Shown piece after piece: positions 1,962-31,263 of a stretch of 34,112 nt of DNA. Position 1 is the stretch's first letter. Each line of letters starts with the position of its first letter. The translations under genes and the position numbers were made by a program. The stretch is from positions 1 through 34,112 of IMG/VR virus record IMGVR_UViG_3300037882_001556, one strand, 5' to 3'. The notes beneath the pieces were generated by a model that made no database searches, was not told the DNA's origin, and saw nothing but the letters and a program-made list of their open reading frames with translations. This stretch comes from a virus.

Positions 1962-2053
1962 CGCAGTCGCAGAATCTCGGGATCGGCGCTATCTTCACGG
2001 CCGTTTCGCTGGTGCGGTCTTACTTGGTGCGGAGAGTGTTTGATGGATTATAA
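1958..2053 (+). CDS. 31-aa protein resembling the C-terminal half of DUF7220-type phage proteins
   Basis: The GTG at 1958 overlaps the previous TGA (GTGA). The product begins MTQSQNLGIGAIFTAVSLVR and continues to a C-terminal RSYLVRRVFDGL. From memory, a common small phage membrane-protein family (DUF7220) ends in the same way: a Q/N, then GIG-hydrophobic-FT-x-x-SL-x-RSY-x-x-RR-x-F. That family is usually about twice as long, with an N-terminal transmembrane half that is absent here. The ORF overlaps the start of the helicase-methylase gene by 11 bases. It is either a natural minimal version or a remnant. The family match is by pattern only. Confidence 0.55.
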   Translation: MTQSQNLGIGAIFTAVSLVRSYLVRRVFDGL

Positions 2054-4289
2054 ATCGTTCCTCGAATCGAAGCGGCTGACCGCGCCTCCGGCCGGGCTCG
2101 CCGAGGTTCAAGATCTACATCCGTCGCTATTCGATTGGCAAGCCGCCATCGTTCGATGGGCATTGAAGCGCGGCCGCGCCGCCATGTTCGCCGATTGCGG
2201 CCTCGGCAAGACGTTCATGCAACTCGAATGGGCGCGGCACATCCCGGGCGATGTTCTGCTCCTGACGCCTCTTGCTGTCGGGCATCAGACCGTTCGCGAA
2301 GCGCAACGGTTCGGCATCGACGCCGCTCTATCTCGCGACGGCAAGCGCGCCGCGAAGATCACCGTCACGAACTACGAGAAGCTTCACCTGTTCCAGCCGG
2401 GCGACTATGCCGGCGTTGTGCTGGACGAGTCGTCGATCCTGAAGAACTTCACCGGATCGATCAGGAACCGCGTCATCGAAGCGTTCCATCAGACTCCCTA
2501 CCGGCTCGCCTGCACCGCCACGCCAGCGCCGAACGACTACATGGAACTCGGCAACCATGCGGAGTTTCTCGGCATCATGTCGCGCACGGAAATGCTCGCG
2601 TCGTTCTTCGTCCACGATAGCGGCGACACTTCCGAATGGCGCGTCAAGGGCCACGCGGAGGAGGCATTCTGGCGATGGGTCGCGTCGTGGGCCTGCATGA
2701 TGCGCCGACCGTCGGACATCGGTTACGACGACGCGGGATTCGATCTCCCGCCGCTCCGCTTTCACGAGCACATCATCGAAGTCGACGCGCCGCTGCCGGG
2801 CGAGCTATTCACCAAGCCGGCTGAGTCGTTACACGAGCAGCGATGCGCGCGGCGACTGACTCTTGATCAACGCGTCGCGGAAGTCGCGAAGCTCATCAAA
2901 GCCGAGCCCGACGAACCATGGCTCGTCTGGTGCGAACTGAACGATGAGGGCGATGAACTCGCGCGGATACCGAATGCAGTGCAAATCGCCGGCAAGGACG
3001 ACGACGACGCGAAAGCCGAACGGATGCTCGGATTCACGAACAGTACGGTCCGCATCCTCGTTAGTAAGCCGAAGCTCGCCGGCTTTGGCATGAACTGGCA
3101 GCACTGCGCGCGGGTCGCGTTCGTCGGGCTCTCGCATAGCTATGAGCAGTTCTATCAGGCAATCCGGCGTTGCTGGCGGTTCGGTCAGACGCGGCCGGTC
3201 GACGTCCACATCATTTCGAGCAGTCTCGAAATCGGCATCCTCGATAACGTCAAGTCGAAGCAAGCCATCGCGGACCAGATGGCAGAGGGGATGATTGCGC
3301 ACATGAACGAATCGATGAAGGTGGCACTCGGCGGCACGGATCGGGAGCGCGACGACTACCGCACTGGCGACGAGCGCGGCGACGGCTGGACCTTGCATCT
3401 CGGCGATTGTGTCGAGCGAGTGCGCGACCTGCCGGACGCGTCGATCGACTTCTCGATCTTCTCGCCGCCGTTTGCGTCGCTCTACACCTACTCGAACTCC
3501 GAACGCGACATGGGCAACAGCAAGGACGGCGAGGAGTTCTGGCGGCACTTCGCGTTCCTCGCTGTCGAACTGGCGCGCGTCATCAAGCCCGGGCGTCTCG
3601 TGTCGATCCATTGCATGAACCTGCCGACGAGCAAGGTGCGGCACGGGCACATCGGGATCCAGGACTTCCGAGGCGACGTGATCCGCGCGATGGAAGCGGC
3701 CGGGATGCTCTACCATTCCGAGGTCTGCATCTGGAAAGACCCGGTCACGGCGATGCAGCGCACCAAGGCGCTCGGGCTCTTGCACAAGACGATCGAGAAG
3801 GACTCCTGCATGTCGCGGCAGGGCATCCCGGATTATGTCTGCACGTTCCGCAAGCCCGGCGAGAACTCTGCGCCCGTCGCCGGCCGCTTCGATCGGTTCG
3901 TCGGCCCCGACGGTCCGGTCCCGACAGGCGACGCGCGCCGCTACTCGATCGATGTCTGGCAGCGGTATGCCTCGCCGGTCTGGATGGACATCAACCAGTC
4001 GCGGACATTGCAGCGCGAATCGGCGCGCGAAGAGGAAGACGAGAAGCACATCTGCCCACTGCAACTCGACGTGATCGAACGATGCGTCGAACTCTGGTCG
4101 AATCCGGGTGATCTCGTTCTGTCACCATTCGCCGGCATCGGATCGGAGGGCTACGTCGCGATCGAGGCGGGCCGTCGGTTTGTCGGTATCGAACTCAAGC
4201 CGTCGTATTTCGCGCAGGCTGTGAAGAACCTTCGCGCTGCGGCCGAACGGGTTCATGAGCCAACGTTGTTCGACGGACCGGCCGAGTGA
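2043..4289 (+). CDS. SF2 (SNF2-like) helicase / DNA methyltransferase fusion (748 aa)
   Basis: The ATG at 2043 has GGAGAG six bases upstream, and a TTG just before it is less likely. The N-terminal part is a superfamily 2 ATPase of SNF2 type: Walker A ADCGLGKT (50-57), DES in place of DEAH (128-130), TATPAPND (158-165), and a C-terminal lobe with GFGMNWQ (about 347-353) and IRRCWRFGQTRPV (374-386). From about residue 449 a beta-class amino-methyltransferase follows: DCVERVRDLPDASIDF, the catalytic SPPF (474-477), then the AdoMet-binding SPFAGIGS (694-701) and FVGIELKPSYF. SPPF together with this motif order fits N4-cytosine or N6-adenine methylation. Such fusions occur in phages and probably modify phage DNA against restriction. 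No restriction nuclease motif is present. Target sequence is unknown. Confidence 0.9.
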   Translation: MDYKSFLESKRLTAPPAGLAEVQDLHPSLFDWQAAIVRWALKRGRAAMFADCGLGKTFMQLEWARHIPGDVLLLTPLAVGHQTVREAQRFGIDAALSRDGKRAAKITVTNYEKLHLFQPGDYAGVVLDESSILKNFTGSIRNRVIEAFHQTPYRLACTATPAPNDYMELGNHAEFLGIMSRTEMLASFFVHDSGDTSEWRVKGHAEEAFWRWVASWACMMRRPSDIGYDDAGFDLPPLRFHEHIIEVDAPLPGELFTKPAESLHEQRCARRLTLDQRVAEVAKLIKAEPDEPWLVWCELNDEGDELARIPNAVQIAGKDDDDAKAERMLGFTNSTVRILVSKPKLAGFGMNWQHCARVAFVGLSHSYEQFYQAIRRCWRFGQTRPVDVHIISSSLEIGILDNVKSKQAIADQMAEGMIAHMNESMKVALGGTDRERDDYRTGDERGDGWTLHLGDCVERVRDLPDASIDFSIFSPPFASLYTYSNSERDMGNSKDGEEFWRHFAFLAVELARVIKPGRLVSIHCMNLPTSKVRHGHIGIQDFRGDVIRAMEAAGMLYHSEVCIWKDPVTAMQRTKALGLLHKTIEKDSCMSRQGIPDYVCTFRKPGENSAPVAGRFDRFVGPDGPVPTGDARRYSIDVWQRYASPVWMDINQSRTLQRESAREEEDEKHICPLQLDVIERCVELWSNPGDLVLSPFAGIGSEGYVAIEAGRRFVGIELKPSYFAQAVKNLRAAAERVHEPTLFDGPAE

Positions 4290-4309
4290 ACCCGTGGTTA
4301 ATTTTTTCC

Positions 4310-4337
4310 TTGCAACGTTTTTGAAACGTGGTAGCGT
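4310..4337 (+). promoter_or_regulatory. Promoter with the same leaderless geometry as the 1436 gene
   Basis: A T-rich run (4302-4307) precedes TTGCAA at 4310-4315. TAGCGT at 4332-4337 is the best -10 candidate after a 16-base spacer, and it ends 7 bases before the ATG at 4345. The -35 begins 35 bases upstream of the ATG, compared with 36 bases at the related gene at 1436. The -10 box is weak (three of six), so an activator may be needed. Confidence 0.4.
4315..4329. promoter_or_regulatory. Palindromic operator candidate in the promoter spacer
   Basis: ACGTTT, three bases, then AAACGT make a perfect 6+6 palindrome lying between the proposed -35 and -10 boxes of the gene at 4345. A dimeric repressor bound there would block RNA polymerase. 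Which protein binds is unknown; the HTH proteins of this window are candidates. Confidence 0.4.
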
Positions 4338-4344
4338 CAACTCT

Positions 4345-4554
4345 ATGAGCAAACACAGGAAACGAGGCCGCCCGCCTCTGCCGGAATCGGATGGCGACAG
4401 GCTAAACGGCATCGTTCAGATTATGCGGTTCCTTGGCATTAGATCAACGGCTACATACTACAGACGCAATCCTCCTGTTGACCGCGATGATTGCGGGAAC
4501 GTCACAGGGTCGAAGCGGAAGCTTCGACTGTGGCAAAAACAACAAACAACTTAA
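4345..4554 (+). CDS. Small HTH-like regulator, paralogue of the 1436 gene (69 aa)
   Basis: The protein begins MSKHRKRGRPPLPESDGDRL and continues with NGIVQIMRFLGIRSTATYYR, a helix-turn-helix-like segment at about residues 20-41. A basic C-terminus follows (VTGSKRKLRLWQKQQ). The RGRPP tail, the Gly-Asp turn, the LG at the end of the first helix and the YRR after the second align with the 85-aa protein at 1436, so the two are probably diverged duplicates. There is no Shine-Dalgarno before the ATG; the promoter sits immediately upstream. It is likely a DNA-binding early regulator acting in the host cytoplasm. Fold and target are inferred from pattern only. Confidence 0.65.
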   Translation: MSKHRKRGRPPLPESDGDRLNGIVQIMRFLGIRSTATYYRRNPPVDRDDCGNVTGSKRKLRLWQKQQTT

Positions 4555-4564
4555 CCGACCTCTC

Positions 4565-4589
4565 GCCGTCGATAGGCCCATTCGACGGC
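4565..4589 (+). terminator. Hairpin after the HTH gene, weak terminator or attenuator
   Basis: GCCGTCGA (4565-4572) pairs perfectly with TCGACGGC (4582-4589) across a 9-base loop, just after the stop at 4554. Only TATCTTC follows, with no U-run, so it would be an inefficient intrinsic terminator or an RNA processing/stability stem. The 4555-4691 strip has no other gene that I can support. Confidence 0.35.
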
Positions 4590-4691
4590 TATCTTCAACC
4601 ATGAATGACTCTTCTCTTGCTGTTGTGTACGCCAGCCGCCGGAGCGGAACCCCGGGCAACCGCTCGCGGCGGCACCTTTCGAGGTCTATCA

Positions 4692-4913
4692 ATGATTCAG
4701 AAACCATCCATCAAACAAACTGGAATCAAGCACGTCGCTCACCTCGCAAACCGCGCAGCCAAGGCGATGCGCGAGGCCGGATGCTCCTATCGGCTGATCG
4801 ATGACATGCGCGTCCGCGTGCTCGACGACGCGAACAAGTGGTCTATCGAGGAGGCGATTGGGATCGTCGCGGAGTATTGCGAGGTCGAAAGTCCAGAAGG
4901 GCCGACGCCGTGA
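4692..4913 (+). CDS. Hypothetical protein (73 aa)
   Basis: The ATG at 4692 has GAGG about eight bases upstream. An earlier in-frame ATG at 4605 would add a leucine-rich pseudo signal peptide, but it lacks a ribosome site. The protein starts MIQKPSIKQTGIKHVAHLAN and is mostly helical and soluble, with a DDMRVRVLDDANKWSIEEA segment in the middle and an acidic C-terminus. I do not recognise it. Its stop overlaps the GTG of the next gene (GTGA), so the two are translationally coupled. Confidence 0.6.
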   Translation: MIQKPSIKQTGIKHVAHLANRAAKAMREAGCSYRLIDDMRVRVLDDANKWSIEEAIGIVAEYCEVESPEGPTP

Positions 4914-5185
4914 TTGAGAAAACCCCACAAGAACTCGCCCAAGAGTGGGCAGATCTGGAAGACAGGTTCTTTGCCGTACATGCCGAATGCGATATCGCGA
5001 TAAATGCCGCAAAAGAGCGGAAAGCCAACGCGACAAACGAGGCGGTTGCGGCAGGTCGTCGGCTTCGAGATTCGCTCGTCGATATCGACCGGGACATCGC
5101 GTTCAATCTCGACGGGCGGATCGTTTTTGTCCGCGCGGACGGGGCCGGATGTGCTCTGCCGCCTGAGTTATATCGTATTTACTAA
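4910..5185 (+). CDS. Hypothetical coiled-coil protein (91 aa)
   Basis: The GTG at 4910 overlaps the preceding TGA and has AGAAGG nine bases upstream. The first two thirds form one long alpha-helix rich in Ala, Glu, Lys and Arg (from TPQELAQEWADLEDRF to about residue 65), a likely coiled coil. A short beta-type tail follows (DGRIVFVRADGAG, then LPPELYRIY). It has no signal peptide or membrane segment. The family is not recognised. A helical rod ending in a small strand pair is common in phage accessory proteins and gives no function. Confidence 0.6.
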   Translation: MIEKTPQELAQEWADLEDRFFAVHAECDIAINAAKERKANATNEAVAAGRRLRDSLVDIDRDIAFNLDGRIVFVRADGAGCALPPELYRIY

Positions 5186-5209
5186 GCCCGTTGGGCAGAC
5201 AGGAAGACT

Positions 5210-5500
5210 ATGCGACCACAGATCCTCCCGACGGTCACCAAAGAAACGATCGAAGATGCGAATATCCATGCGTTAATCGACACAGACGAAGACAACAGTA
5301 AGTCTTTCTCCAGATTCGTCACAGAACAACCGGCTATGTTCAGGCATAGTTTAGGATTCGCTGAAGAGATCCTTCCCGTTGTCGGTGTTATTGGCCGCAA
5401 TTCGGTACTCGCCGCTGCATGGACGACATACGAATTGTTGAATCGACAAGCAGAAATCGAACGCGCGAAGATTCGACAAGGGGTTAATGATGAGACATGA
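5210..5500 (+). CDS. Hypothetical protein (96 aa)
   Basis: The ATG at 5210 has AGGAAG five bases upstream. The protein has an acidic N-terminal half (HALIDTDEDNSKSFSRF) and a moderately hydrophobic helix around residues 50-72 (EEILPVVGVIGRNSVLAAAW). It ends in a charged amphipathic helix. The hydrophobic stretch is interrupted by charges, so a transmembrane segment is possible but not convincing. Its stop overlaps the start of the next gene by 14 bases. I do not recognise the family. Base composition from here to about 6300 is more AT-rich than the rest of the window. Confidence 0.6.
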   Translation: MRPQILPTVTKETIEDANIHALIDTDEDNSKSFSRFVTEQPAMFRHSLGFAEEILPVVGVIGRNSVLAAAWTTYELLNRQAEIERAKIRQGVNDET

Positions 5501-8148: not shown

Positions 8149-8335
8149 CCCGTTGAGATGGCCAGAGATCGAAAGGTTTCGATTCGAGGAGCGGGCCGCA
8201 ATCCGAGAATATGACGGCGGTCAATCGCGGGAAGATGCGGAACGTTACGCCGAAAAGGAAATCCGATCATCAGTCTTCCGATCTGACATCGAATCGAAGA
8301 AGGTCAAAAGTAGTTCCAAAGGCATAGAACAATGA
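8129..8335 (+). CDS. Small phage protein with EYDGG motif (68 aa)
   Basis: The ATG at 8129 overlaps the previous gene by 20 bases and has only a weak GAG upstream. The core reads FEERAAIREYDGGQSREDAE, followed by RYAEKE. I recall this E-x-A-A-I-x-E-[YF]-DGG-x-x-R-x-x-AE pattern as a short helical module in many phage and plasmid proteins, sometimes at the C-terminus of replication enzymes and sometimes as a stand-alone protein. It has no catalytic residues that I can name. Its stop overlaps the ATG of the secreted protein gene (ATGA). Confidence 0.6.
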   Translation: MLKLHSDPLRWPEIERFRFEERAAIREYDGGQSREDAERYAEKEIRSSVFRSDIESKKVKSSSKGIEQ

Positions 8336-9726
8336 AAACCGTTCTCGTTTTTCTCATTGTCGCTTGCTCGCTTGCTGCGCAAACGATCGACCTCCCGCTC
8401 TCCGCACCGCTGCCGCCGAACTTCCGGGCGGTGCCGCATCAGTCGGGCGCGCTGATAATCAACGACGGACCGCCCGCACAGGTCGGCGTCTCGATCATGG
8501 GCTTTCCGCTCGCGACCGCGAAGACGATCAACGGCGTGCGCGGCCCGTGGTGGCTCCAAGGCGAGTCGCTTCTCGCCGCACCATGGGCCGCAGAGCCGGA
8601 CGACGCAACGCGCGCGGCAATCCAAACGCTTCTCGAACCGTCGATTGACTTCGCCTTCCTCGCCAAGCCGCGCATTGCCGCCGTGCTCGCGAACTTCGGC
8701 GACGGGAAGCCGCACGACTTCGGCTTCACGCAGCTCGCCTCGACTCGACAGGCGTGGCTCGGCGAGACTCTACCGGCCGACAACTTTCATTACCGCTTCA
8801 TGAACTCGATCGGCGCGGAGGGATTCTGCAACGGGCACTACGATCTGCCGTTTTGGGCGTGGGTGAACTGGCTCCAAACCGGCGATGACGCGACCTACTC
8901 GGCCGCGCTTCGCTGGTCGATCGGACAGGTGACGAGCGGGTTCATTTGGTCCGGTCCGGCCAAGGGTATGTACCGGACCGAGAAGGGCATCGACCACGTC
9001 GGATCGTTCGGGAATCCGATCTGGGAAAAGAACTGGTGCCGTTCGACGGTGATGGCGTGGCACGTCACTGGTATGCCAGTCTTTCGACTTGCCGCTGAGG
9101 CTCACCGATCGGCATTGCTTGCACTCCCGGCGAACTATTGGAACGGCGAATGGGGCGCGCGAATCCCGGCTCGAATCCTCGATGACATGCTCGTTTTGCA
9201 GGAGGGCATGGGCTACACGATGGCCGCTCGTGCGGTGCCGTTCGTTCGCCACGTCGTCTCGCACGCCGACCCGGTGCTGAACATCTGGACCAACAAGGGC
9301 AACAACGGCAACGCGCCCGCGAGCCCGTGGATGAGCGCCGAATGCTGGCTTGCATGCTGGCAGTGGATGAGTCGCGAGCCTTCGCTCGCCGACCTCCGGC
9401 CACGACTCATGGCGATCGGTCGATCCATCCTCGATCGAGGAATCAAGCCGACGCCGAACGGTCCGCTTTGCTGGTACCGATTCCACCCGGCATTCGAGCC
9501 GCCGATTGCGCTTGGGCATCTCGGCTTTCTCCTGCCCGTCGCTCGCGTCGTCGACCCGTCCCGCGCTGCGGATATCCAGACGATGCTCACGAGTTACGCG
9601 GGGTCGCTCCTCTCTCAGATACCGCACGCTGTCCCGGCGGTCATGGACATCCGCGCCGACTACGGGCCGAAGGGCCCGGCGAACTACAAAGACATGCTCG
9701 AAATATTGCACGGGGCGCGGCGATGA
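8332..9726 (+). CDS. Secreted or lipid-anchored helical (toroid-like) protein (464 aa)
   Basis: The ATG at 8332 (ATGA overlap) follows AAAGG. The N-terminus MKTVLVFLIVACSLAAQTID is a signal peptide. IVAC fits a lipobox, giving a lipoprotein with Cys12, but cleavage after AAQ by signal peptidase I is also possible. The mature part is rich in Trp, His and Gly with repeated helix pairs (LPFWAWVNWLQTGDDATYSA, TVMAWHVTGMPVFRLAAEAH, RILDDMLVLQEGMGY, MSAECWLACWQWM). This resembles the alpha/alpha toroid of some glycan-acting enzymes, but no catalytic motif can be named. It stands between replication proteins, a strange place for an exported protein, so it may be a moron that alters the host surface. 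It shares the operon's GC-rich codon use. Confidence 0.8.
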   Translation: MKTVLVFLIVACSLAAQTIDLPLSAPLPPNFRAVPHQSGALIINDGPPAQVGVSIMGFPLATAKTINGVRGPWWLQGESLLAAPWAAEPDDATRAAIQTLLEPSIDFAFLAKPRIAAVLANFGDGKPHDFGFTQLASTRQAWLGETLPADNFHYRFMNSIGAEGFCNGHYDLPFWAWVNWLQTGDDATYSAALRWSIGQVTSGFIWSGPAKGMYRTEKGIDHVGSFGNPIWEKNWCRSTVMAWHVTGMPVFRLAAEAHRSALLALPANYWNGEWGARIPARILDDMLVLQEGMGYTMAARAVPFVRHVVSHADPVLNIWTNKGNNGNAPASPWMSAECWLACWQWMSREPSLADLRPRLMAIGRSILDRGIKPTPNGPLCWYRFHPAFEPPIALGHLGFLLPVARVVDPSRAADIQTMLTSYAGSLLSQIPHAVPAVMDIRADYGPKGPANYKDMLEILHGARR

Positions 9727-10262
9727 AAAACCTGATGGTAGATATCGAGACGATCAGCGTCCGCACTGATGCCTGTATCGTCTCGATCGGTGCCGTTTTC
9801 TTCGACCAAGGTGGACCCGGAGAAACATTTTACACGGCAGTTGATATCTGCGCTCAGCCTCAATCAATCATCGGCAGGATCGAGCCATCGACCGTTCTAT
9901 TTTGGATGAACCATCGCGATAGCTTCCCGGACATGGACGACGCGCCGGACCTAAAGACCGCGCTCAATCGGTTCTTTTGTTTCGCCGGTCAAGACGAATC
10001 ACCGACCGACGACTGGACGTCAATGGTATGGTCGTATGGGTCGAACTTCGACATCCCGATACTTCAAGAGGCATCAATTCGTTGCGGTCAATATTGGCCA
10101 TGGGGTTACCGATCAGCAAGATGTGCGCGGACAGTAATTGAACTTGCAAAGACGGTCGGGTTCATCCCTGTTTGTAGCCGCGACCACAACGCGCTTGCCG
10201 ACGCGGTCGAGCAAGCGAAGAACGTATCTGCCGCTTGCAAGGTCTTAGGTGTGAAAATATGA
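9723..10262 (+). CDS. DEDDh 3'-5' exonuclease, DnaQ/RNase T superfamily (179 aa)
   Basis: The ATG at 9723 overlaps the previous stop (ATGA). All five DEDDh residues can be placed: D7 and E9 in MVDIET (ExoI), D110 in YGSNFDIPIL (ExoII), and H155 and D160 in DHNALADAVEQAK (ExoIII). The segments SIGAVFFDQG and GRIEPSTVLFWMNHRD match what I recall of the Rv2179c-like exoribonuclease subgroup often found in phages. It would remove nucleotides from 3' ends of RNA or DNA during replication or recombination, using two metal ions. The protein is a complete single domain with no polymerase attached. Confidence 0.9.
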   Translation: MKNLMVDIETISVRTDACIVSIGAVFFDQGGPGETFYTAVDICAQPQSIIGRIEPSTVLFWMNHRDSFPDMDDAPDLKTALNRFFCFAGQDESPTDDWTSMVWSYGSNFDIPILQEASIRCGQYWPWGYRSARCARTVIELAKTVGFIPVCSRDHNALADAVEQAKNVSAACKVLGVKI

Positions 10263-10441
10263 AAGACCATGACCGCAAGTCCGGCGATCCGTCACCGGCC
10301 ACCATCGCCAAACGGTGCGCCGAGATTCGAGCGGAACGGGTCGCACGCGCCGCTCGCATGTCCGACATGGGATGGGGCGGCGAATGGACGCGGAAGTATG
10401 GCGCGGTCCGCAAGCGGAAGGCGAAGAAGGAGATGGAATGA
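10259..10441 (+). CDS. Small basic hypothetical protein (60 aa)
   Basis: The ATG at 10259 overlaps the exonuclease stop (ATGA), and its own TGA overlaps the next ATG, so it is locked in a translationally coupled chain. The protein is strongly basic (ATIAKRCAEIRAERVARAAR, and a C-terminal VRKRKAKKEME). A central MGWGGEWTRKYG has helix-breaking glycines. This could bind nucleic acid. I do not recognise the family. An earlier in-frame start at 10235 would fall inside the exonuclease and has no ribosome site. Confidence 0.6.
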   Translation: MKDHDRKSGDPSPATIAKRCAEIRAERVARAARMSDMGWGGEWTRKYGAVRKRKAKKEME

Positions 10442-10995
10442 CCTGCGCGCTCGCAATCACCAACGGAACCGATGTCGTCATCGCCGCCGATCGACTCGGC
10501 TCGAACGGATGGACCGGAACCGAGTATAGGAACCCGAAGGTATTCGCCGTCGGCAACGTGCTTCTCGGAGTCGCCGGTTCGTATCGGTACTCGCAGTTGA
10601 TTCAGCGGAAGTTGAAGGCTCCGCGAGACGGATTCATTGACCTCGACGAGGACTTCGTCGATGCCGTTCGGAGGGTGCTCAAGGATCACGGGTCGCTGAA
10701 AGATGGAACGACGGGAAACGCCGAGGCCGCAGGTGTTGCCGTCATCGGATGGAAGGGCCGAATCTTCTATTTCCAGTCCGACCTATCCATGATCGAGCCC
10801 GACGAGCCCTTCGTTTCCGTCGGATCCGGAGATCATCACGCCACCGGGTTCCTCTATTCGTTCGACTGGTCGACGCCGGTCGCTATCGACGAAATGAAAC
10901 GCCGCGCGTCGCTGGCGATCGAGTGTGCGGCCCGCTTCGTTCCTTCGGTGCGTGGCAAGGCGCAGGTCGAAGTTCTCAATGGGTCGGCGTCATGA
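10438..10995 (+). CDS. Ntn hydrolase, proteasome-beta/HslV-like (185 aa)
   Basis: The ATG at 10438 overlaps the preceding stop (ATGA). After Met removal the protein starts with Thr, the N-terminal nucleophile of proteasome-type hydrolases. Using mature numbering, Asp17 (VVIAADRLG), Lys33 (RNPKVFAVG) and Ser129 (VSVGSGDHHATG) fall at exactly the positions used by 20S proteasome beta subunits. The region after VLLGVAGSYR has the expected helices. Near position 166-169 the usual Asp is not seen, although a Ser stands at 169. It has no propeptide. No unfoldase (HslU, ClpX or Mpa type) is encoded nearby, so it could act alone as a peptidase or amidase or use a host ATPase. Homologous phage Ntn proteins exist as far as I recall, but their role is unknown. 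Confidence 0.8.
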   Translation: MTCALAITNGTDVVIAADRLGSNGWTGTEYRNPKVFAVGNVLLGVAGSYRYSQLIQRKLKAPRDGFIDLDEDFVDAVRRVLKDHGSLKDGTTGNAEAAGVAVIGWKGRIFYFQSDLSMIEPDEPFVSVGSGDHHATGFLYSFDWSTPVAIDEMKRRASLAIECAARFVPSVRGKAQVEVLNGSAS

Positions 10996-11465
10996 CGATA
11001 CCGCATCCGTCGATTGTTTACGGGGTCCAGTTTGTCGTTCCCGGGAAACCGGAAGGCCAGCGTCGGCATCGTTCTCGAATTGTCCACTCCGGATTTAGCA
11101 CGTTCGCCCGGCAGTATGACCCAAAGGAATCTGTCGATCGCAAGGCGACGATCCAGCATTACGCCCGAGAAGCAATGGTCCGGGCATCTCCGATGACCGG
11201 ACCTGTCTCCGCCGAGGTCACCGCCTACTTCGCTTGCCAGCGATCGAAGTGGAGGAAGCGCGATCCGGTCCCGGAAGGATGGCACGCAAGCAAGCCCGAT
11301 AGCGACAACGTGCTCAAAAGCCTGTTTGATGCGTGCAACGGCGTCGTTTACCTCGACGATTCGCAAGTCGTCGATGTCCACTTCCGCAAGCGGCGCGCGA
11401 AGCAAGGCGAACCCGATCGGCTGGTTGTCCGATTCACAGAAGCGACCGAATCCGACCACGAATAA
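10992..11465 (+). CDS. RusA-like Holliday junction resolvase (157 aa)
   Basis: The ATG at 10992 overlaps the previous stop (ATGA). The protein has the RusA core: a strand FVVPGKPEGQRRHRS, then HASKPDSDNVLKSLFDACNG with D103 and D105 of the D-x-D-N metal site, then VVYLDDSQVVDVHFRKR with D122/D123. These acidic residues bind the catalytic metal, and the basic segment (FRKRRAKQ) contacts DNA. It would cut four-way junctions or branched replication intermediates before packaging. It ends the replication block. Confidence 0.9.
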   Translation: MTIPHPSIVYGVQFVVPGKPEGQRRHRSRIVHSGFSTFARQYDPKESVDRKATIQHYAREAMVRASPMTGPVSAEVTAYFACQRSKWRKRDPVPEGWHASKPDSDNVLKSLFDACNGVVYLDDSQVVDVHFRKRRAKQGEPDRLVVRFTEATESDHE

Positions 11466-11495
11466 AAACGCCCCGCCGCTTGCCACGGCGAGGCG
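11464..11495 (-). terminator. Intrinsic terminator facing left
   Basis: Read on the minus strand, a GC-rich stem (outer 4 bp, one mismatch, inner CGCCG/CGGCG 5 bp, 7-base loop; 11495-11469) is followed directly by five Ts (A-run at 11464-11468). On the plus strand the same stem is preceded by As and followed by GAATGC, so it should not stop rightward transcription well. The A-run includes part of the stop codon of the RusA-like gene. No leftward gene ends here. Confidence 0.6.
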
Positions 11496-11550
11496 AATGC
11501 AAAGATCCACCGTCTCGATTCAACCGCAGTCTAACCGGAGATCGGGACAC

Positions 11551-11709
11551 ATGGAAACCGTCGAATGGCTCGCGCCAAAGGAAGCCGCGCGCCGACTTCA
11601 CCTCCACGTCGAAACAATACGCCGTTGGGCTCGAGCAAGAATCGTCTCAACTCGGCGCATCGGACCTCGACTCCGCGTCCGATGGCCCATTTTGACACGC
11701 GGCAAATAA
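11551..11709 (+). CDS. Excisionase/MerR-type HTH protein (52 aa)
   Basis: The ATG at 11551 has CGGAG about 12 bases upstream. The whole protein is a minimal winged helix-turn-helix: VEWLAPKEAARRLHLHVETI, then RRWARARIVSTRRIGPRLRV ending in a wing strand RWPILTRGK. This is the pattern of the HTH_17 (excisionase/MerR-like) family, which binds short DNA sites. It sits alone between the replication and late operons, so a switch role in late transcription, or architectural use, is plausible. There is no integrase in view to pair with it as an excisionase. Confidence 0.7.
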   Translation: METVEWLAPKEAARRLHLHVETIRRWARARIVSTRRIGPRLRVRWPILTRGK

Positions 11710-11733
11710 CAACATTTCAAGACTTATCGCAAC

Positions 11734-11775
11734 TCTGCCCATGTTTGCTATGGCAGAACCGCACCAAAATCGAAT
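11734..11775 (+). promoter_or_regulatory. Palindrome and possible late promoter
   Basis: TCTGCC (11734-11739) and GGCAGA (11752-11757) are perfect inverted repeats, extended inward by an AT/AT pair around a bulged C. A TTGCTA inside the palindrome (11745-11750) followed after 19 bases by TCGAAT (11770-11775) is a weak promoter candidate for the late operon starting at 11835. The palindrome would then be an operator or activator site. Spacing is long, so this is tentative. Confidence 0.3.
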
Positions 11776-11834
11776 AGACCTCACGCATTGGAGCCCGCGC
11801 GACAAGGGAAGCGCAGGGCGACCGGAGACATCGC

Positions 11835-12044
11835 GTGAACCTATTCGTCGAATGCCGCGAATGCGGTAGAGCACTCGGCCGAAAGCCACAAACCGACCCG
11901 CAATCAGCCGGGAAAGCTACGGCCTTCCTCTGCCGAGTGTGCGATGTCTGGACCGTCACCGACGAATCCGCTCCTCACCCGACCGCTCACCGGCCCGGGA
12001 ACTGGCGGCAACGGATCGAGTCTCGTGAGGCCGCCAACCGATGA
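11835..12044 (+). CDS. Zinc-ribbon protein upstream of terminase (69 aa)
   Basis: The GTG at 11835 has GGAG nine bases upstream. Two CxxC pairs, VECRECGRAL and LCRVCDVW, are separated by about 20 residues and form a classical zinc ribbon. The C-terminal 30 residues are polar and basic. It begins the late operon and its stop overlaps the ATG of the terminase small subunit. Small zinc proteins and HNH nucleases are common beside terminases, but there is no HNH motif here, so a DNA- or protein-binding adaptor is the most that can be said. Confidence 0.7.
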   Translation: MNLFVECRECGRALGRKPQTDPQSAGKATAFLCRVCDVWTVTDESAPHPTAHRPGNWRQRIESREAANR

Positions 12045-12490
12045 GCGGCGACTCGGATAGGGAACCCGAACCGCTGCCGAAGCACCCGGGAGGTAGGCCG
12101 ACCGTATGGACTCCCGAGACGGAACTCCGACTTTTCGAGGCGATCAGACTCGGCATCTCACTAAAGAACTCGGCTGCCTACGCAGGCATCGGGGAACAGA
12201 CGGTCTATGACCGGATGCGGAACGACGCCGAGTTTTCGGGGTCCGTCCAACGCGCGAGGGCAACAGCCGTCGCAACCGTCGCGATAGAAGCCAGCCGCAC
12301 AGAACATCCCGTCCGTCTGAAATACTGCCATCGCTACCTCGCCATCCATGACAACCAGATCGAGCCGCAGAAGATCGAGCATTCGGGCGGGATCGCGGTC
12401 ACTCTGGCGGACTTCTTCGATCAGGGAGCGCAAGAGTTAGACAACGATGAAAGCGATCAGAAGTCCGAAGGCGAGGCACCGCCCGCGTGA
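12041..12490 (+). CDS. terS: Terminase small subunit (149 aa)
   Basis: The ATG at 12041 overlaps the upstream stop (ATGA), and the gene ends in a GTGA overlap with the large subunit. It has the usual order: a disordered basic start, a PGGRPTVWTPE segment, then an HTH (LRLFEAIRLGISLKNSAAYA with GIGEQTVYDRMRND), then a helical oligomerisation region (GSVQRARATAVATVAIEASR) and an acidic tail. Small subunits of this type recognise the packaging site and feed DNA to the large subunit. Position immediately before the ATPase supports the call. Confidence 0.85.
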   Translation: MSGDSDREPEPLPKHPGGRPTVWTPETELRLFEAIRLGISLKNSAAYAGIGEQTVYDRMRNDAEFSGSVQRARATAVATVAIEASRTEHPVRLKYCHRYLAIHDNQIEPQKIEHSGGIAVTLADFFDQGAQELDNDESDQKSEGEAPPA

Positions 12491-13899
12491 TTATGGCTGT
12501 CGAATCAATTCCGACGACGCCAGATCCGAAGCGTGTCTTTGCCGCGTGCAAGGCTGATCCTCTCGTCTTCTCCGATCGGATACTGAAGCGCACGCGATGG
12601 GAAGGCCAGCGTGATATTCGTCGGGCGGTGCACGCTCATCGAAGGACTGAGGTTCATTCCGGGAATGGTGTTGGCAAGACTCACGAGCTCGCGGCGCTCG
12701 TAATCGAATGGGTGGTCACGAACAAGCTCGGCCGCGTCCTTTGCACTGGCCCGAGTTTCGAGGCGATCCGATCCGGACTTTGGCAGGAGGTCCGTCAACT
12801 CTTCTTCAACTATCGTGCGCTCACTGGCCATTCGATGAAGGGCCACATGGGCGAGCACGAATGGACGGTTGACCCCGGTCGAGATGCCGCCGTCGTAAGC
12901 GTGGATCAAATATCGTCGATTCAGGGTCGACGCGGGAAGCCGACGCTCATCATTGTCGACGAGGCGCAGGGTGTCGACGCCGATCTTTGGGACGCGCTCG
13001 AATCTTTGATGACGAGCGAAGCGTCTCGAATGGTTGCAAGCGGGAATCCACTTTGGCCGGAGGGACGGTTCTACGAGTTTTCCCGGTCGCCGGAATGGCA
13101 TCACATCGAGATATCGTGCCTCGACCATCCGAACGTGAAGCTTGGCCTCGAGAAGTTCGTCGGCGCGGTCACGAAGCTAAGCGTCGAGGAGAAGCGGCGC
13201 GCGTGGGGAGAAGAGGACCATAGGTATATCGCCCGCGTCCTCGGCCGCTACCCGGAAGGTGCGGGCCATCGACTCGTCACGTTGCGAGACCTGACCGCTT
13301 CCGCATCGGTCGACACTTCGACGCTTCCGAAGGATGGACTGCATGTCGGCATTGACGTTGCCGGCGACGGTGGTGACTTGAACGTTGCGTCTATCGTGAA
13401 AGACCGTGTCCTCGTCGATCAGGAATCGTGGGGCGGTATCGACACAATGGCGACGACTGGCCGGATCGTTCGGCTCATGGCGCGAGTCGGCGCGAAGCCC
13501 GGAAACGTTCACATCGACAAGTGCGGACTTGGCGTTGGAATCGTCAACCGGCTTTGGGAACTCGGTCACTACGTCGACGGCGTGGACTTCGGCGCTGGCG
13601 CGGTTGGCGATTGGGCTGATTCGATGCCGCATGACAGGTTCGCGAATCGTCGCGTCGAGCTTTACTGCGCGACGGCGACCGCGATTCGGCACGGTCAATT
13701 GTCAGTTCCAGAACGATTCAAGGAAACTCGCGAAGACTTGATGGCGGTTGACTTCATTCCTCCGGCATCGGATGGCGGTCTCAAGCTCGAAAAGAAGGAG
13801 CAAGTGAAGAAGCGGATCGGCCGATCTCCGGACCACGGCGACAGCCTTTGCCTTTCGATGTCACGCATGGGACAGAGGAGTTACCTCGCATGCGGTTGA
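12487..13899 (+). CDS. terL: Terminase large subunit (470 aa)
   Basis: The GTG at 12487 (GTGA overlap) is the likely start; an ATG two codons later is possible. The ATPase half has Walker A SGNGVGKT (about 58-65), a coupling region, and Walker B LIIVDEAQ (about 154-161). The RNase H-like nuclease half has the three expected acidic sites: GIDVAGDGGD (about 288), VHIDKCGLGVGIVNRL (about 342) and SPDHGDSL (about 449). It moves DNA into the prohead and cuts the concatemer. The sequence alone does not settle cos versus headful packaging. Confidence 0.95.
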   Translation: MIMAVESIPTTPDPKRVFAACKADPLVFSDRILKRTRWEGQRDIRRAVHAHRRTEVHSGNGVGKTHELAALVIEWVVTNKLGRVLCTGPSFEAIRSGLWQEVRQLFFNYRALTGHSMKGHMGEHEWTVDPGRDAAVVSVDQISSIQGRRGKPTLIIVDEAQGVDADLWDALESLMTSEASRMVASGNPLWPEGRFYEFSRSPEWHHIEISCLDHPNVKLGLEKFVGAVTKLSVEEKRRAWGEEDHRYIARVLGRYPEGAGHRLVTLRDLTASASVDTSTLPKDGLHVGIDVAGDGGDLNVASIVKDRVLVDQESWGGIDTMATTGRIVRLMARVGAKPGNVHIDKCGLGVGIVNRLWELGHYVDGVDFGAGAVGDWADSMPHDRFANRRVELYCATATAIRHGQLSVPERFKETREDLMAVDFIPPASDGGLKLEKKEQVKKRIGRSPDHGDSLCLSMSRMGQRSYLACG

Positions 13900-16229
13900 T
13901 CCAGCGAGTTCGGTCGATGCTCGGAGGCAAGGCGCAGACTCGATCTGCTGCCGATAGCCTGTTCGCGAATGACGGCGCACTCCTCGCGCAATCGATGGGA
14001 TCGGCTTCCGCCGGGAACGTCTCGAATCCGTACCAGCAGATCGCTTGGACGTTCGCCGCGATCGGGACAATCTCTCGCGCGATTGCGTCCGTCCCATTCC
14101 GCGTGATGCGTGGAGAGGAGCACGATGAATCCCATCCGCTTCAATCGTTCTTTGACCGTCCGTCTGCCGATCTTCCTATCTCGCAGTTTTGGACGGCAAC
14201 GATCTGTTCGCTTGAGCTGACCGGCGATTGCTACTGGATTCTCACGGCGAAGGACGGGCGACTTCGCATCGGTGAACCGCCTTACGCAGCGGTCCCCGTG
14301 AACGGTCGAGCGATCAAGCCGGTCGATAAATCTGGACGTGCGATGAAGTCGGCCGATCTTTGGGCCAGACCGTCAGGATACAAGCTCGGCGACTCTTCGA
14401 TCATTCTCGAACCACACGAGGTCTGCCGATTCAGATATTGGGATCCGTCCGACCGATGGGGCGGGATGTCACCGCTCGAACCGGCTCGCCTTTCGATGCA
14501 AGGTTACGTTGCGTCGGAAGCGTGGAACACGTCATTTTTCGCGAACGCTGCCGATCCGGGTGGTTCTCTTGAGGTCGCCGACTTCCTGTCGCCTGACCAA
14601 CAGAAGCAAATCCTTAAGGCGTGGAACGACGCGCACGGCGGGCCTTGGAATCGAGGCAAGACAAACCTTGCAATGGGCGGGACGAAGTACGTTCCCAACG
14701 GTCGATCGCAAAAGGACGCCGAGTTCATGCGATGGCTTGAGTGGACGCGGGATGAACTCCTCGTGGTTCACGGCGTGCCGAAGGCGATCCTGTCGATTAC
14801 GGATCAGTTGAACTATGCGACGCACCTCGGGCAGACTCGCGTATTTTGGGAGACGAAAATCCTCCCGTTGATGCAAGACATCGAGGGAGCGCTTTGGACG
14901 TTCATTTTCGCAGGCGTCGAAAACGGCGCACTCGAAGGACGTTTCGATACGTCTCAAGTTCCAGCTCTTTCGTCTGACCTGACCGAGCGGATTGGCAACG
15001 CAACTGCGATGGCGAACCTCGGATGGTCGCCGGACGCGGTCAACGAGCGGTTCCGGCTGGGCATGCCGGAGCTTGGCGCGATCGATCCGGCGCTTGGCGT
15101 TGAAGGTGACGTCATCGCTTCCGACGCGCCGATGTCCGATGCGCAGATCGTTGCGCTAACTGGAATCGTTGCGCAGGTCGCGGACGGAACGTTGCCCTAC
15201 CAGTCAGCCGTTGAACTCGTCCAGATCGCGTTCCCGACGATCGACGCGGCCGCTGCCGCGAAGCTACTCGGGCCGGCGGCGAAGTTCTCGCCGGCCAAAC
15301 CGAAAGAAGACGACGACTCCCCGCCGGCCGATAAAGGCACGGGGGATCAACCGAATCCGCCGGCAAAGTCCGGCGATGCGCCCATTGATGCCGATAGTCC
15401 GTCAGCGGGGAACGTCGTCACCTTATCCGCCGCGCCGCTTGTCATCGTGCACGGTCATCGGATGTCGCCGAAGGAAGCGGCCCGCGCCTATGACGCGTGG
15501 GTCCGCGACCGCGTGCCGGCCGTCAATCGCCGGCTCACGAAGGCGATGCGCGACTATCTCGCGTCGCTCAAGCGCGAGCAGCTTCGGTTGATGAAGGCTT
15601 GGCGCGAGACCTACGACCTCGGCGACGACGCGAAGATCCCGCCGCTCACCGAATCGGACCTGAGGCAGATCCTTTTCGCGCGGCAGAAGTGGGACGCCGA
15701 GATCAAGAAAAAGGGACTCGGCCCGATCGGCGACATCGTGAAGGCGAGCGCCGACCAGGCCGCGCGTGAACTCGGCGTCGGGTTCATGAAGGCGACCGAT
15801 CCGCTGATTCTCGAGGTGCGCGGCCGCGTGGTCGGCGCGCTGGTCCAGGTCAACGCGAACACCCGTAAGGAAGTGCGATCGATCCTGATCGGTGCGCAGT
15901 CGAAAGGTTTGACGATCAACGAAACTTCGGAGCTTCTCGCGCAGCGGATGGAAGGGATCGGCGGCTATCCGCGCGCGCTCCGGATCGCCCGCACCGAGCA
16001 GGGGTTCGCGACCTCGACGACGCGATACGACGTCATGCAGTCCGAGGGGATCGAGCGGCACCAGTGGCGCGCGTCGTCGCTTGGGCCGCGTCCGTCGCAC
16101 GAGGCCACGAACGGGCAGATCGTGACGATCGGCGAGAGGTTCCGGAACGGGTTGATTCATCCTCATGAACTCGGCGCACCGCCGGAGGAAGTCTGTAACT
16201 GCTCATGCCGAGCGGTTGCCGTGGAGTAA
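13890..16229 (+). CDS. Portal protein fused to MuF/SPP1 gp7-type head protein (779 aa)
   Basis: The ATG at 13890 has AGGAG nine bases upstream and overlaps terL by ten bases. Residues 1 to about 430 are a HK97-type portal: NPYQQIAWTFAAIGTISRAI, a SFFDRPSADL-type loop, LEPARLSMQGYVASEAWNTS, and RDELLVVHGVPKAIL. A Pro/Asp-rich linker (about 460-510) follows. From about 515 to 779 there is a MuF (Mu gpF/SPP1 gp7) domain: a helical SPKEAARAYDAW region, then RIARTEQGFATSTTRYDVM (from about 698), W-R-A-S, HEATNGQIV and a C-terminal CNCSCRA. Usually these are two adjacent genes. The fused form would place the MuF domain at the portal ring inside the head. No toxin domain is attached. Confidence 0.85.
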   Translation: MRLIQRVRSMLGGKAQTRSAADSLFANDGALLAQSMGSASAGNVSNPYQQIAWTFAAIGTISRAIASVPFRVMRGEEHDESHPLQSFFDRPSADLPISQFWTATICSLELTGDCYWILTAKDGRLRIGEPPYAAVPVNGRAIKPVDKSGRAMKSADLWARPSGYKLGDSSIILEPHEVCRFRYWDPSDRWGGMSPLEPARLSMQGYVASEAWNTSFFANAADPGGSLEVADFLSPDQQKQILKAWNDAHGGPWNRGKTNLAMGGTKYVPNGRSQKDAEFMRWLEWTRDELLVVHGVPKAILSITDQLNYATHLGQTRVFWETKILPLMQDIEGALWTFIFAGVENGALEGRFDTSQVPALSSDLTERIGNATAMANLGWSPDAVNERFRLGMPELGAIDPALGVEGDVIASDAPMSDAQIVALTGIVAQVADGTLPYQSAVELVQIAFPTIDAAAAAKLLGPAAKFSPAKPKEDDDSPPADKGTGDQPNPPAKSGDAPIDADSPSAGNVVTLSAAPLVIVHGHRMSPKEAARAYDAWVRDRVPAVNRRLTKAMRDYLASLKREQLRLMKAWRETYDLGDDAKIPPLTESDLRQILFARQKWDAEIKKKGLGPIGDIVKASADQAARELGVGFMKATDPLILEVRGRVVGALVQVNANTRKEVRSILIGAQSKGLTINETSELLAQRMEGIGGYPRALRIARTEQGFATSTTRYDVMQSEGIERHQWRASSLGPRPSHEATNGQIVTIGERFRNGLIHPHELGAPPEEVCNCSCRAVAVE

Positions 16230-16232
16230 ATC

Positions 16233-17180
16233 ATGTCGAAAGTTGTTGAACCTTCTTCGATGCGTTTCGAGGCTCCGGTTGCGTTCCGCAAGCTCTCGCG
16301 CAAAGGCGAGAACGGCGAGGAGCGGTATCGTTTCGTCATCGCTACTCAGCGCGTCGCTCTTGATGATGGCGTCGTCTTGATGGATGGCGTCGACCTCGAA
16401 AGGTTCATGGCGAATCCGATCGTCAAGCTCGACCATTGGGATCGGTTTGGCCGTTGCGTCGAAATCGAAAGAGTCGGCGACACGCTCGAGGGAGTGATGG
16501 AGATCGCGCCGGAGGACGCGCTTTCAGAGGGCGCGGCGAAAGCGGCAAAGTTCATGCGATGGTGCGGATTCGGCGCGGCTTCGATCGGGTTTGTCCCGAC
16601 CGTTCGCGACTCGCGACCGTCGGCCGAAGAGATCGAGTCGTATGGGCTCGATCCGAAACGTGGATGGATCGCGCGCAAGTGGCAGCTTCTCGAATGGAGC
16701 TATGTCGATATTGGGAGCGACCCGGGCGCGTCGATGAAAAAGGGCGCAACGCGAGCTGACATGTTCGCTCGAGCCGCGACTATCCGCGCGGACATGGGGC
16801 CGATGGACGACGAGACCGACTCTATTCCTGACGACGCGGAAGACGCGCCGAAGGAACCGGAGAAGGGCGACGACGACGAGAAGACTCCCGCATGGGCAAA
16901 GGCCATTGCCGATGGGATCAACGCGGTCGCGGGAAAGCTTGACGCTCTCGCGACTGAAAGCGCGGCCATCGCTGGCAAGGTCGCCGAAATCCTTTCGATT
17001 ATCGGCGACGAAGGCGAGCCATCAAAAGAACCAGACACCGCGTCCGGCGAAACCGACGAGCCGGACGACGAGCCGAGCCCGGAAGACGAGAAGGGCCGCA
17101 ACATTGCGGCCTCTCTCGCGGCGCTCACCGCGTCGGCAGCGAAGCTCAACGAAATTTCACGGAGGCAGAAAAATGCCTGA
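16233..17180 (+). CDS. HK97-type prohead protease with scaffold-like C-terminus (315 aa)
   Basis: GGAG six bases before the ATG at 16233 supports the start. Residues 1-170 fit the S78 herpes/HK97 protease fold: H68 in VKLDHWD is the likely catalytic His, S117 in FGAASIGFVP is the likely Ser, and LLEWSYVDIGSDPGA closes the fold. From about 190 the protein becomes Asp/Glu/Pro-rich, then a coiled-coil-like Ala-rich helix (IADGINAVAGKLDALATESA), then a final helix. This suggests that the scaffold is joined to the protease. It would guide and then cleave the capsid precursor. The stop overlaps the capsid gene start. Confidence 0.8.
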   Translation: MSKVVEPSSMRFEAPVAFRKLSRKGENGEERYRFVIATQRVALDDGVVLMDGVDLERFMANPIVKLDHWDRFGRCVEIERVGDTLEGVMEIAPEDALSEGAAKAAKFMRWCGFGAASIGFVPTVRDSRPSAEEIESYGLDPKRGWIARKWQLLEWSYVDIGSDPGASMKKGATRADMFARAATIRADMGPMDDETDSIPDDAEDAPKEPEKGDDDEKTPAWAKAIADGINAVAGKLDALATESAAIAGKVAEILSIIGDEGEPSKEPDTASGETDEPDDEPSPEDEKGRNIAASLAALTASAAKLNEISRRQKNA

Positions 17181-18405
17181 TGAACTCAAAGCACTGACCG
17201 ATGCGACTGGACAGATCCAGCGTGGCATCGAGTCCATCACGGCCGAACAGGCCGAGCAGAAGCGCGCCATCGCGTCGATGCAGGAACGACTCAGGGCAGG
17301 ATCGCTTTCGATGCCCGGTCTCGAGTCCGACGAGTATCGAAAGAAGTACAGTCTTGCCCGTGCGGCTCAGGCCATCTACACGGGGGACTACCGGCACGCT
17401 CAGTTCGAGTGCGGCGTAAGTGACGAACTCAAGCGGAGACTGAGCGGCGAGGTCGAGAATCGAGTTTTCTCGACGTTGGCCGGTGGCACGGGTGGGTTCC
17501 TTGTCCCGCCGGAAGTCATGCCGGGCGTCGTTCAGGCGCTCGAGGGACAGGCGAAGCTCAGGGCTCTTGGCGTGACCGTCGTCAAGCCAAGCGGATACCC
17601 GTATTCGATCGTCAAAGAAACGTCGACGGCTTCGGCCTCGGCGGCTTCGGAACTCGGTACCTACTCCGAGCAGTCAGTCACGTTCGGGAAGATCGACCTT
17701 CTGCCGAAGAAGGTCGCCATCCGATTCGTGCTGACGCAGGAACAGGTGATGTGGGCGAATCCTCAAACCGAGCAGGTGATCGATCGCAAGATCGGCGTCG
17801 GCATTGCGAACGAGGAAGACCGGCAGATCATCAATGGCGGGCTCCTGCCGTCGGAGATGCTCGGCATCCTGAACACGACTGGAATCCTGACGACGGCAGG
17901 CATCGCGACGAGTCAGCTGTTCTGGGGCGATATCAATCGCGCTTGGTCGAAGCTGATGAACGCGAACGCTGACCAAAGCGGCGGCGCGTTCGGCGTGCTG
18001 ATGCACTCGATCGAGTGGGCGAAGCTCGCACGTCAGCTCGTCCGCGCGGTTTCGACCACGCAGGCGGAAGATGAGGGAGCAAGCTTCACCGGCGGGTTCC
18101 CGTTCATGTCGGAGAAACGGTTCAAGGAGATCACGGGGTTCCTCGGCGCTCACAATACGATCGTTCCGAAGACACTTGGCGCAGGCGCTACCGAGTCGTT
18201 CCCGATCACCGGCAACTTCCGCGACTACTACCTTGCCGAGTTCGGCGGGATGGTACTGACCAAGAGCGACACGGCGACAGACGGAACCTACAACGCTTTC
18301 ACTCAAGACCTCGTCCATGTGAAGGCGGTTGTCTGGCGTGATGGCGCAGCGGTTCGTCCGTCATCTTTCCACAGTACTACGGGGATCGTTCTCGGACCGG
18401 CGTGA
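17173..18405 (+). CDS. Major capsid protein, HK97 fold (410 aa)
   Basis: GGAGG eight bases before the ATG at 17173 gives a strong start that overlaps the protease stop by 8 bases. The N-terminal 90 residues form a coiled-coil delta/scaffold domain (LKALTDATGQIQRGIESITA, EQKRAIASMQERL) that the protease would remove. The capsid domain starts near FSTLAGGTGGFLVPPEV, the typical N-arm, and continues with SEQSVTFGKIDLLPKKVAIR (E-loop/P-domain), IGVGIANEEDRQIING and a C-terminal beta strand (HVKAVVWRDGAAV). Length and gene order agree with HK97-type capsids. Confidence 0.9.
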   Translation: MPDELKALTDATGQIQRGIESITAEQAEQKRAIASMQERLRAGSLSMPGLESDEYRKKYSLARAAQAIYTGDYRHAQFECGVSDELKRRLSGEVENRVFSTLAGGTGGFLVPPEVMPGVVQALEGQAKLRALGVTVVKPSGYPYSIVKETSTASASAASELGTYSEQSVTFGKIDLLPKKVAIRFVLTQEQVMWANPQTEQVIDRKIGVGIANEEDRQIINGGLLPSEMLGILNTTGILTTAGIATSQLFWGDINRAWSKLMNANADQSGGAFGVLMHSIEWAKLARQLVRAVSTTQAEDEGASFTGGFPFMSEKRFKEITGFLGAHNTIVPKTLGAGATESFPITGNFRDYYLAEFGGMVLTKSDTATDGTYNAFTQDLVHVKAVVWRDGAAVRPSSFHSTTGIVLGPA

Positions 18406-30939: not shown

Positions 30940-31263
30940 ATGCTAATCATCCAGAAGGGCGCGAACTTCGAGCACGAGCATCAGTTCACAAACGAGCGGA
31001 CGGGTGCCGTTGCGAACATCCTCGGATACTCGACGAACTCTTTCATCTTGAGAGACCGGATCGGCGGCACTCTCATCGCAACCGGCACCGCGACAATCAG
31101 CGACGGCGCGAACGGAATCTGCCTCGTGACATTGACGATTGCACAAACATCCGCAATGACCGCTGAGCAAAAAGGAGTTTGTAGCATCGAAGTCGGCGAC
31201 GGTGTAGACTTCAGGCATACATACGAGGACACGTTCTACGTTCGCCCGGAGACTGCAACGTGA
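30940..31263 (+). CDS. Ig-like baseplate or fibre accessory domain (107 aa)
   Basis: The ATG at 30940 sits very close behind GGGGGAG (spacing about 2-3), which is unusual. The protein resembles BppU-type N-terminal domains: LIIQKGANFEHEHQFTNERT, ILGYSTNSFILRDRIGGTLI, TATISDGANGICLVTLT, and VEVGDG-like strand pairs ending in YEDTFYVRPE. These beta-sandwiches hold receptor-binding proteins to the tail. Its GTGA overlap with the esterase-like gene supports a shared function. Confidence 0.6.
   Translation: MLIIQKGANFEHEHQFTNERTGAVANILGYSTNSFILRDRIGGTLIATGTATISDGANGICLVTLTIAQTSAMTAEQKGVCSIEVGDGVDFRHTYEDTFYVRPETAT

Follow-up and report, generated by a model that had tools for sequence, protein, structure and literature searches.

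Fuchs, Alva and Lupas (2021) surveyed 22 proteasome homologues and described phage-borne ones among them (PMC8665760). AAH occurs in alpha-proteobacteria, Actinobacteria and many phages, which have also taken it into Firmicutes and Bacteroidetes; PPH, a protein of about 140 aa without helix H2, occurs in phages and their hosts; and BPH has no known ATPase (PMC8665760). Only proteasome beta and HslV carry a propeptide, and a proteasome subunit on its own has no activity before assembly (PMC8665760). Some homologues have no closed ring or protease role, Anbu being a split ring and connectase a monomeric ligase (PMC8665760). The survey reported no genomic context or co-occurrence that points to a function, and no co-occurring AAA+ partner was found for such homologues (PMC8665760). 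In the literature that we searched there was no functional study of AAH or PPH and no activity report for AAH, an absence that is not proof.

The DNA analysed here, called the window, is the whole of a 34112-base virus record that may be a genome fragment. It belongs to a lambda-like phage whose head genes are of the HK97 type and whose tail includes a lambda J-type protein (Table 1). A nucleotide search of positions 8332-13899 against phage records gave no match, and one weak relative was found for the TerL of this phage. Pfam, PHROGs, NCBIfam, PADLOC and PDB sequences gave nothing for the 464-aa protein of the early operon, and the 492-aa protein near the tail genes is possibly a tail-borne esterase. 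Given the probable prohead protease gene, the phage would own a head-maturation protease.

Table 1. Features of the window, with the matches and gene junctions recorded for each.
Feature	Position	Strand	Matches and remarks
SNF2-type helicase fused to N6/N4 DNA methylase	2040-4289	+	one 749-aa protein
464-aa protein	8332-9726	+	signal-peptide-like start; early operon
3'-5' exonuclease, Rv2179c-like (DexA-type)	9723-10262	+	Pfam PF16473 E 2e-30; ATGA overlap on both sides
Small basic ORF, 60 aa	10259-10441	+	stop overlaps hydrolase start (ATGA); no PHROG match
Proteasome-like Ntn hydrolase, AAH-like (P0001)	10438-10995	+	185 aa; PHROG 1040; Thr1 is codon 2
RusA-like Holliday junction resolvase	10992-11465	+	Pfam PF05866 E 6e-24; start overlaps hydrolase stop (ATGA)
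Terminase small subunit	12041-12490	+	PHROG 4102 E 5e-9
Terminase large subunit	12487-13899	+	PHROG 2 E 6e-27
Portal, Mu F-like C-terminal domain	13848-16229	+	Pfam PF04860 E 8e-51, PF04233 E 8e-8
Probable prohead protease	16233-17180	+	NCBIfam NF045541 E 2e-6, weak, below cut-off; between portal and major head genes
Major head protein	16906-18405	+	PHROG 10 E 1e-27; true start probably downstream of 5' overlap
492-aa protein	31260-32738	+	weak GDSL/SGNH hydrolase match; near tail genes

The product of the hydrolase gene, P0001, begins MTCALAITNGTDVVIAADRLGS. Its ATG at 10438 is preceded, 5 nt upstream, by the ribosome-binding site AAGGAG, ATGA overlaps join the gene to the 60-aa ORF on its 5' side and to the resolvase gene on its 3' side, and close homologues begin at the same point (MTC...). 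A longer reading from a GTG at 10315 (226 aa) was ruled out by the MTC starts of the homologues and by the position of the ribosome-binding site. Since close homologues share its start, the lack of a propeptide, as claimed in the original prediction, is real. Counting residues after removal of Met likewise confirmed the numbering that it had given (T1, D17, K33 and S129), and exposure of Thr1 by Met removal fits its proposal of self-activation.

P0001 scored 24.5 bits (E 2.4e-5) with the Pfam Proteasome model PF00227, above the gathering score of 22.4, and belongs to PHROG 1040, 'peptidase HslV family' (E 2.2e-24), although this PHROG mixes AAH-like with PPH/RPC-like proteins. A tblastn search reached 172 phage records, with best identities of 36-37%; the homologues sit in T5-like, jumbo, Vibrio, Aeromonas, Geobacillus and Tenacibaculum phages, and several are already annotated as 'peptidase HslV family' or 'proteasome subunit'. 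Among plasmids tblastn gave 22 matches, mostly rhizobial. By the Pfam, PHROG and phage tblastn results, the family resemblance is well beyond chance. When viral contigs were searched with the P0001 sequence alone no relatives were found, and our first alignment was too divergent to serve as a query; a narrower profile of six relatives was therefore used for the locus search. It matched 370 viral and 125 bacterial loci, of which 80 each were retained for analysis, and the retained loci included Azospirillum, rhizobia, Frankia, Amycolatopsis, Paenibacillus, Lutibacter and many viral contigs. P0001 is a divergent new member of an already described proteasome-like family of phages and bacteria.

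We then modelled P0001 as a single chain with AlphaFold, on a 58-row alignment of window and related-locus sequences. The model (pLDDT 91.7, pTM 0.88) has helices at residues 49-58, 69-83 (H2, with high confidence), 132-140 and 150-167, counted with Met as 1, and no large insertion. Foldseek and VIA-align grouped it with BPH, 20S beta and HslV; BPH was the best structural match (Z 21.4, 2.8 A over 176 residues), and Z values against BPH and 20S beta were 19-21 over about 170 residues. Residue 2 of the model aligned to residue 1 of the BPH chain and, among the matches listed, of most solved chains. The profile search of PDB sequences gave the same leader, with BPH first (2e-8) and then HslV and 20S beta. 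P0001 is predicted to have the proteasome-beta fold, and the four-layer Ntn sandwich expected for such an enzyme appears in this confident model.

As to subfamily, P0001 resembles AAH in being a group I homologue with a compact subunit, no propeptide, all of H1-H4 and no insertions, and in having relatives in alpha-proteobacteria, Actinobacteria and phages, with cases in Firmicutes and Bacteroidetes. It differs from other AAH-like members, to which it is about 27-38% identical, in several family-typical residues (A45 G46 for T S, Y50 for M, Y29 for R and K173 for P). Because it has 185 aa with H2 and relatives in the groups of AAH, P0001 is likely an AAH, a placement matched to the published description and not to reference sequences (WP_035979212 and others). 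PPH is also a phage-borne group I homologue without a propeptide, but its length of about 140 aa and lack of H2 rule out this identity for P0001, which is longer by these counts and has H2 predicted at 69-83. BPH (5OVS, 5OVT, 5OVU), the nearest solved fold and the nearest PDB sequence, is about 20-25% identical and forms a heptameric double ring with a long acidic pore loop, whereas P0001 is known as a single-chain model. HslV (ClpQ) has the fold in common with P0001, whose relatives match HslV chains from residue 1; the propeptide usual in HslV (PMC8665760) is nevertheless absent from P0001. None of the NCBIfam HslV models matched P0001 at E 0.01, and no HslU was present among the window proteins scanned, the window being a virus contig that may be partial. 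The 20S beta model TIGR03634 gave 18.9 bits against a cut-off of 224. Ser129 and Asp166 are defining residues of the 20S proteasome beta subunit; P0001 has the former, but residue 166 is Phe, and of 58 aligned relatives 49 carry Cys at position 129.

Conservation was read from two sets. In 16 homologues picked by tblastn with no motif filter, Asp17, Lys33 and the oxyanion Gly (G43) were invariant, and position 1 was Thr in 15 and Ser in one. The 58-row alignment was gathered with motifs spanning positions 1-2 and 43-50, so that residues there, T1 and G43 included, were partly selected among its invariant residues, which are T1, C2, D17, K33, G43, S47, R49, D114, G128 and G130. Position 129 was Cys in 7 of the 16 tblastn homologues as well, and given its prevalence in the larger set Ser129 is not a conserved catalytic feature of the family. 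The proteasome-type residue set originally put forward thus stands for Thr1, Asp17 and Lys33, with the conservation of Thr1 and Lys33 on which it depended, but not for Ser129 as a family feature. P0001 is a genuine enzyme and probably an active one. The invariant D114 would fit a ring: residue 114 lines the substrate pocket of the neighbouring subunit in the 20S proteasome, and the analogy rests on spacing.

We consider it reasonably probable that P0001 is an AAH-like, ATP-independent, ring-forming threonine peptidase, whose assembly and substrates we infer. This is the best explanation because it draws together the family matches, the model, the conserved catalytic residues, the first rank of BPH and the lack of an AAA+ partner among the scanned window proteins. 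The host methionine aminopeptidase would expose Thr1, the subunits would assemble into a homo-oligomeric ring or barrel and so complete the active sites, and the chamber could then cut small or unfolded polypeptides without an ATPase of its own, in the way already suggested for BPH and for the proteasome without its cap. Its likeliest use would be protein turnover or clean-up during infection, over attack on a named defence protein. On the model, ring formation is plausible. The existence of unclosed or non-protease homologues (Anbu, connectase) and the departures of P0001 from family-typical residues count against this explanation. If active, AAH-like proteins would rank among the simplest self-compartmentalising proteases known.

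Like HslV, P0001 might instead pair with an AAA+ unfoldase, in this case the HslU or ClpX of its host, and thereby redirect host ATP-dependent proteolysis. HslV is among the nearest folds, and no AAA+ unfoldase was detected among the window proteins scanned or by a window-wide Walker-motif scan of this possibly partial record, which bears out the original statement that the window codes for no ATPase partner; any partner would accordingly have to be supplied by the host or by another part of the phage genome. In sequence, however, HslV is more distant from P0001 than BPH is, and no unfoldase is known for BPH; the flanks of the viral relatives held no AAA+ gene besides one P-loop match (L020). 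The lack of a recurrent ATPase near the relatives is in line with the survey (PMC8665760), and we regard the use of a host unfoldase as unlikely.

We next looked at gene neighbourhoods, taking the 56 viral relatives whose flanks reached 2.5 kb or more on each side. A gene for a terminase, portal, prohead protease or major head protein lay within 1 kb in 22 of them and within 6 kb in 36, counts made with no formal null for distances; such genes were always on the same strand as the hydrolase gene and flanked it on both sides in nine cases. At one locus (L071) the order was TerL-portal-AAH-protease-head protein. These data show a modest, strand-consistent tie of AAH-like genes to the head/packaging operon, as would suit a late-operon peptidase that acts in head assembly by clearing scaffold or cleaved head-protein pieces. 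Yet the place of the gene within the head cassette is variable, as would equally be expected of an accessory gene; the homologue of T5-like, Geobacillus and jumbo phages lies among nucleotide-metabolism genes; and some bacteria keep it beside housekeeping genes. In the window itself the gene lies 1.0 kb before the small terminase gene, on the early/recombination side between the exonuclease and RusA regions. A role in head assembly is for these reasons improbable for P0001. A wider proposal has AAH-like proteins as ring peptidases that need no ATP: phages would make them along with their head/packaging genes to remove assembly debris, and bacteria of the Azospirillum type would have retained the gene on the chromosome. 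It seems to us decidedly doubtful; if true, it would give the AAH branch its first assigned function, as far as the literature searched shows. The contexts seen here, the head-cassette association in phages and a stable chromosomal place in one bacterial family, add to the 2021 survey, and both make knock-out tests easy to design.

The bacterial copies bear on the idea that P0001 is a counter-defence or host-takeover protease. Of 82 genomes from the bacterial family of Azospirillum sp. B21 (G002), 53 contained an AAH-like gene, which in that strain adjoins ElbB, near NAD synthase, on the chromosome. It is in Azospirillum a native or domesticated bacterial gene, and the AAH-like family is therefore not purely viral. 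The sole point for counter-defence is that phages carry the gene as an accessory without a fixed place. P0001 matches no defence model, and the conserved chromosomal copies beside housekeeping genes in some bacteria disfavour a dedicated counter-defence role, so that we hold this reading to be very unlikely. Although the original prediction was right about the enzyme class (Ntn/proteasome-like), its suggestion that host defence proteins are degraded is unsupported. Finally, that P0001 is a specific ligase or amidase rather than a protease has very little to recommend it beyond the place of the monomeric connectase in the same proteasome-like family (PMC8665760), since connectase lacks H1/H2 and has a two-helix insertion between S3 and S4, whereas the P0001 model shows both H1 and H2 and is free of helix at that point.

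Location beside ElbB and near NAD synthase was also observed at L107 and other Azospirillum loci. The diazotroph-like host list raised the question of a nitrogenase function. Among 200 genomes sampled from the bacterial family that includes L104 (Sinorhizobium), with nifH counted above cut-off, the AAH-like gene was present in 8, nifH in 12 and both in 3 (0.48 expected), and in all three co-occurrences the two genes shared a contig, 8-25 kb apart. Rhizobial genomes with this spacing were G001, G053 and G115. In Ensifer IC4062 (L123) a NifX-associated gene lies about 1 kb from the AAH-like gene, with nifN and nifE after it. Across the 82 genomes of the Azospirillum sp. B21 family, by contrast, the gene occurred without nifH in 8 and nifH without the gene in 16; Frankia nepalensis (L153) had no nifH over the cut-off; and four Rhizobium copies (L126, L128, L131 and L132) have a common stop at codon 39. 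A nitrogenase function was rejected on these three grounds, and we read the proximity to nif genes as hitch-hiking on symbiosis regions and shared ancestry.

Aeromonas phage 4L372D (L009) carries two tandem proteasome homologues, an AAH-like one at 4001-4552 and, at 4570-5454, a PPH/RPC-looking one that is extended at its C-terminus; both have Thr directly after the start codon. The AAH-like profile gave P0001 108 bits and did not match the PPH/RPC-looking homologue. It is possible that the tandem pair forms a two-subunit particle. Pseudoalteromonas and Vibrio phages have versions with a long C-terminal extension or with a lookalike, separate following ORF (L004, 6001-7167; L018, 4001-4984; L012, 4645-4989).
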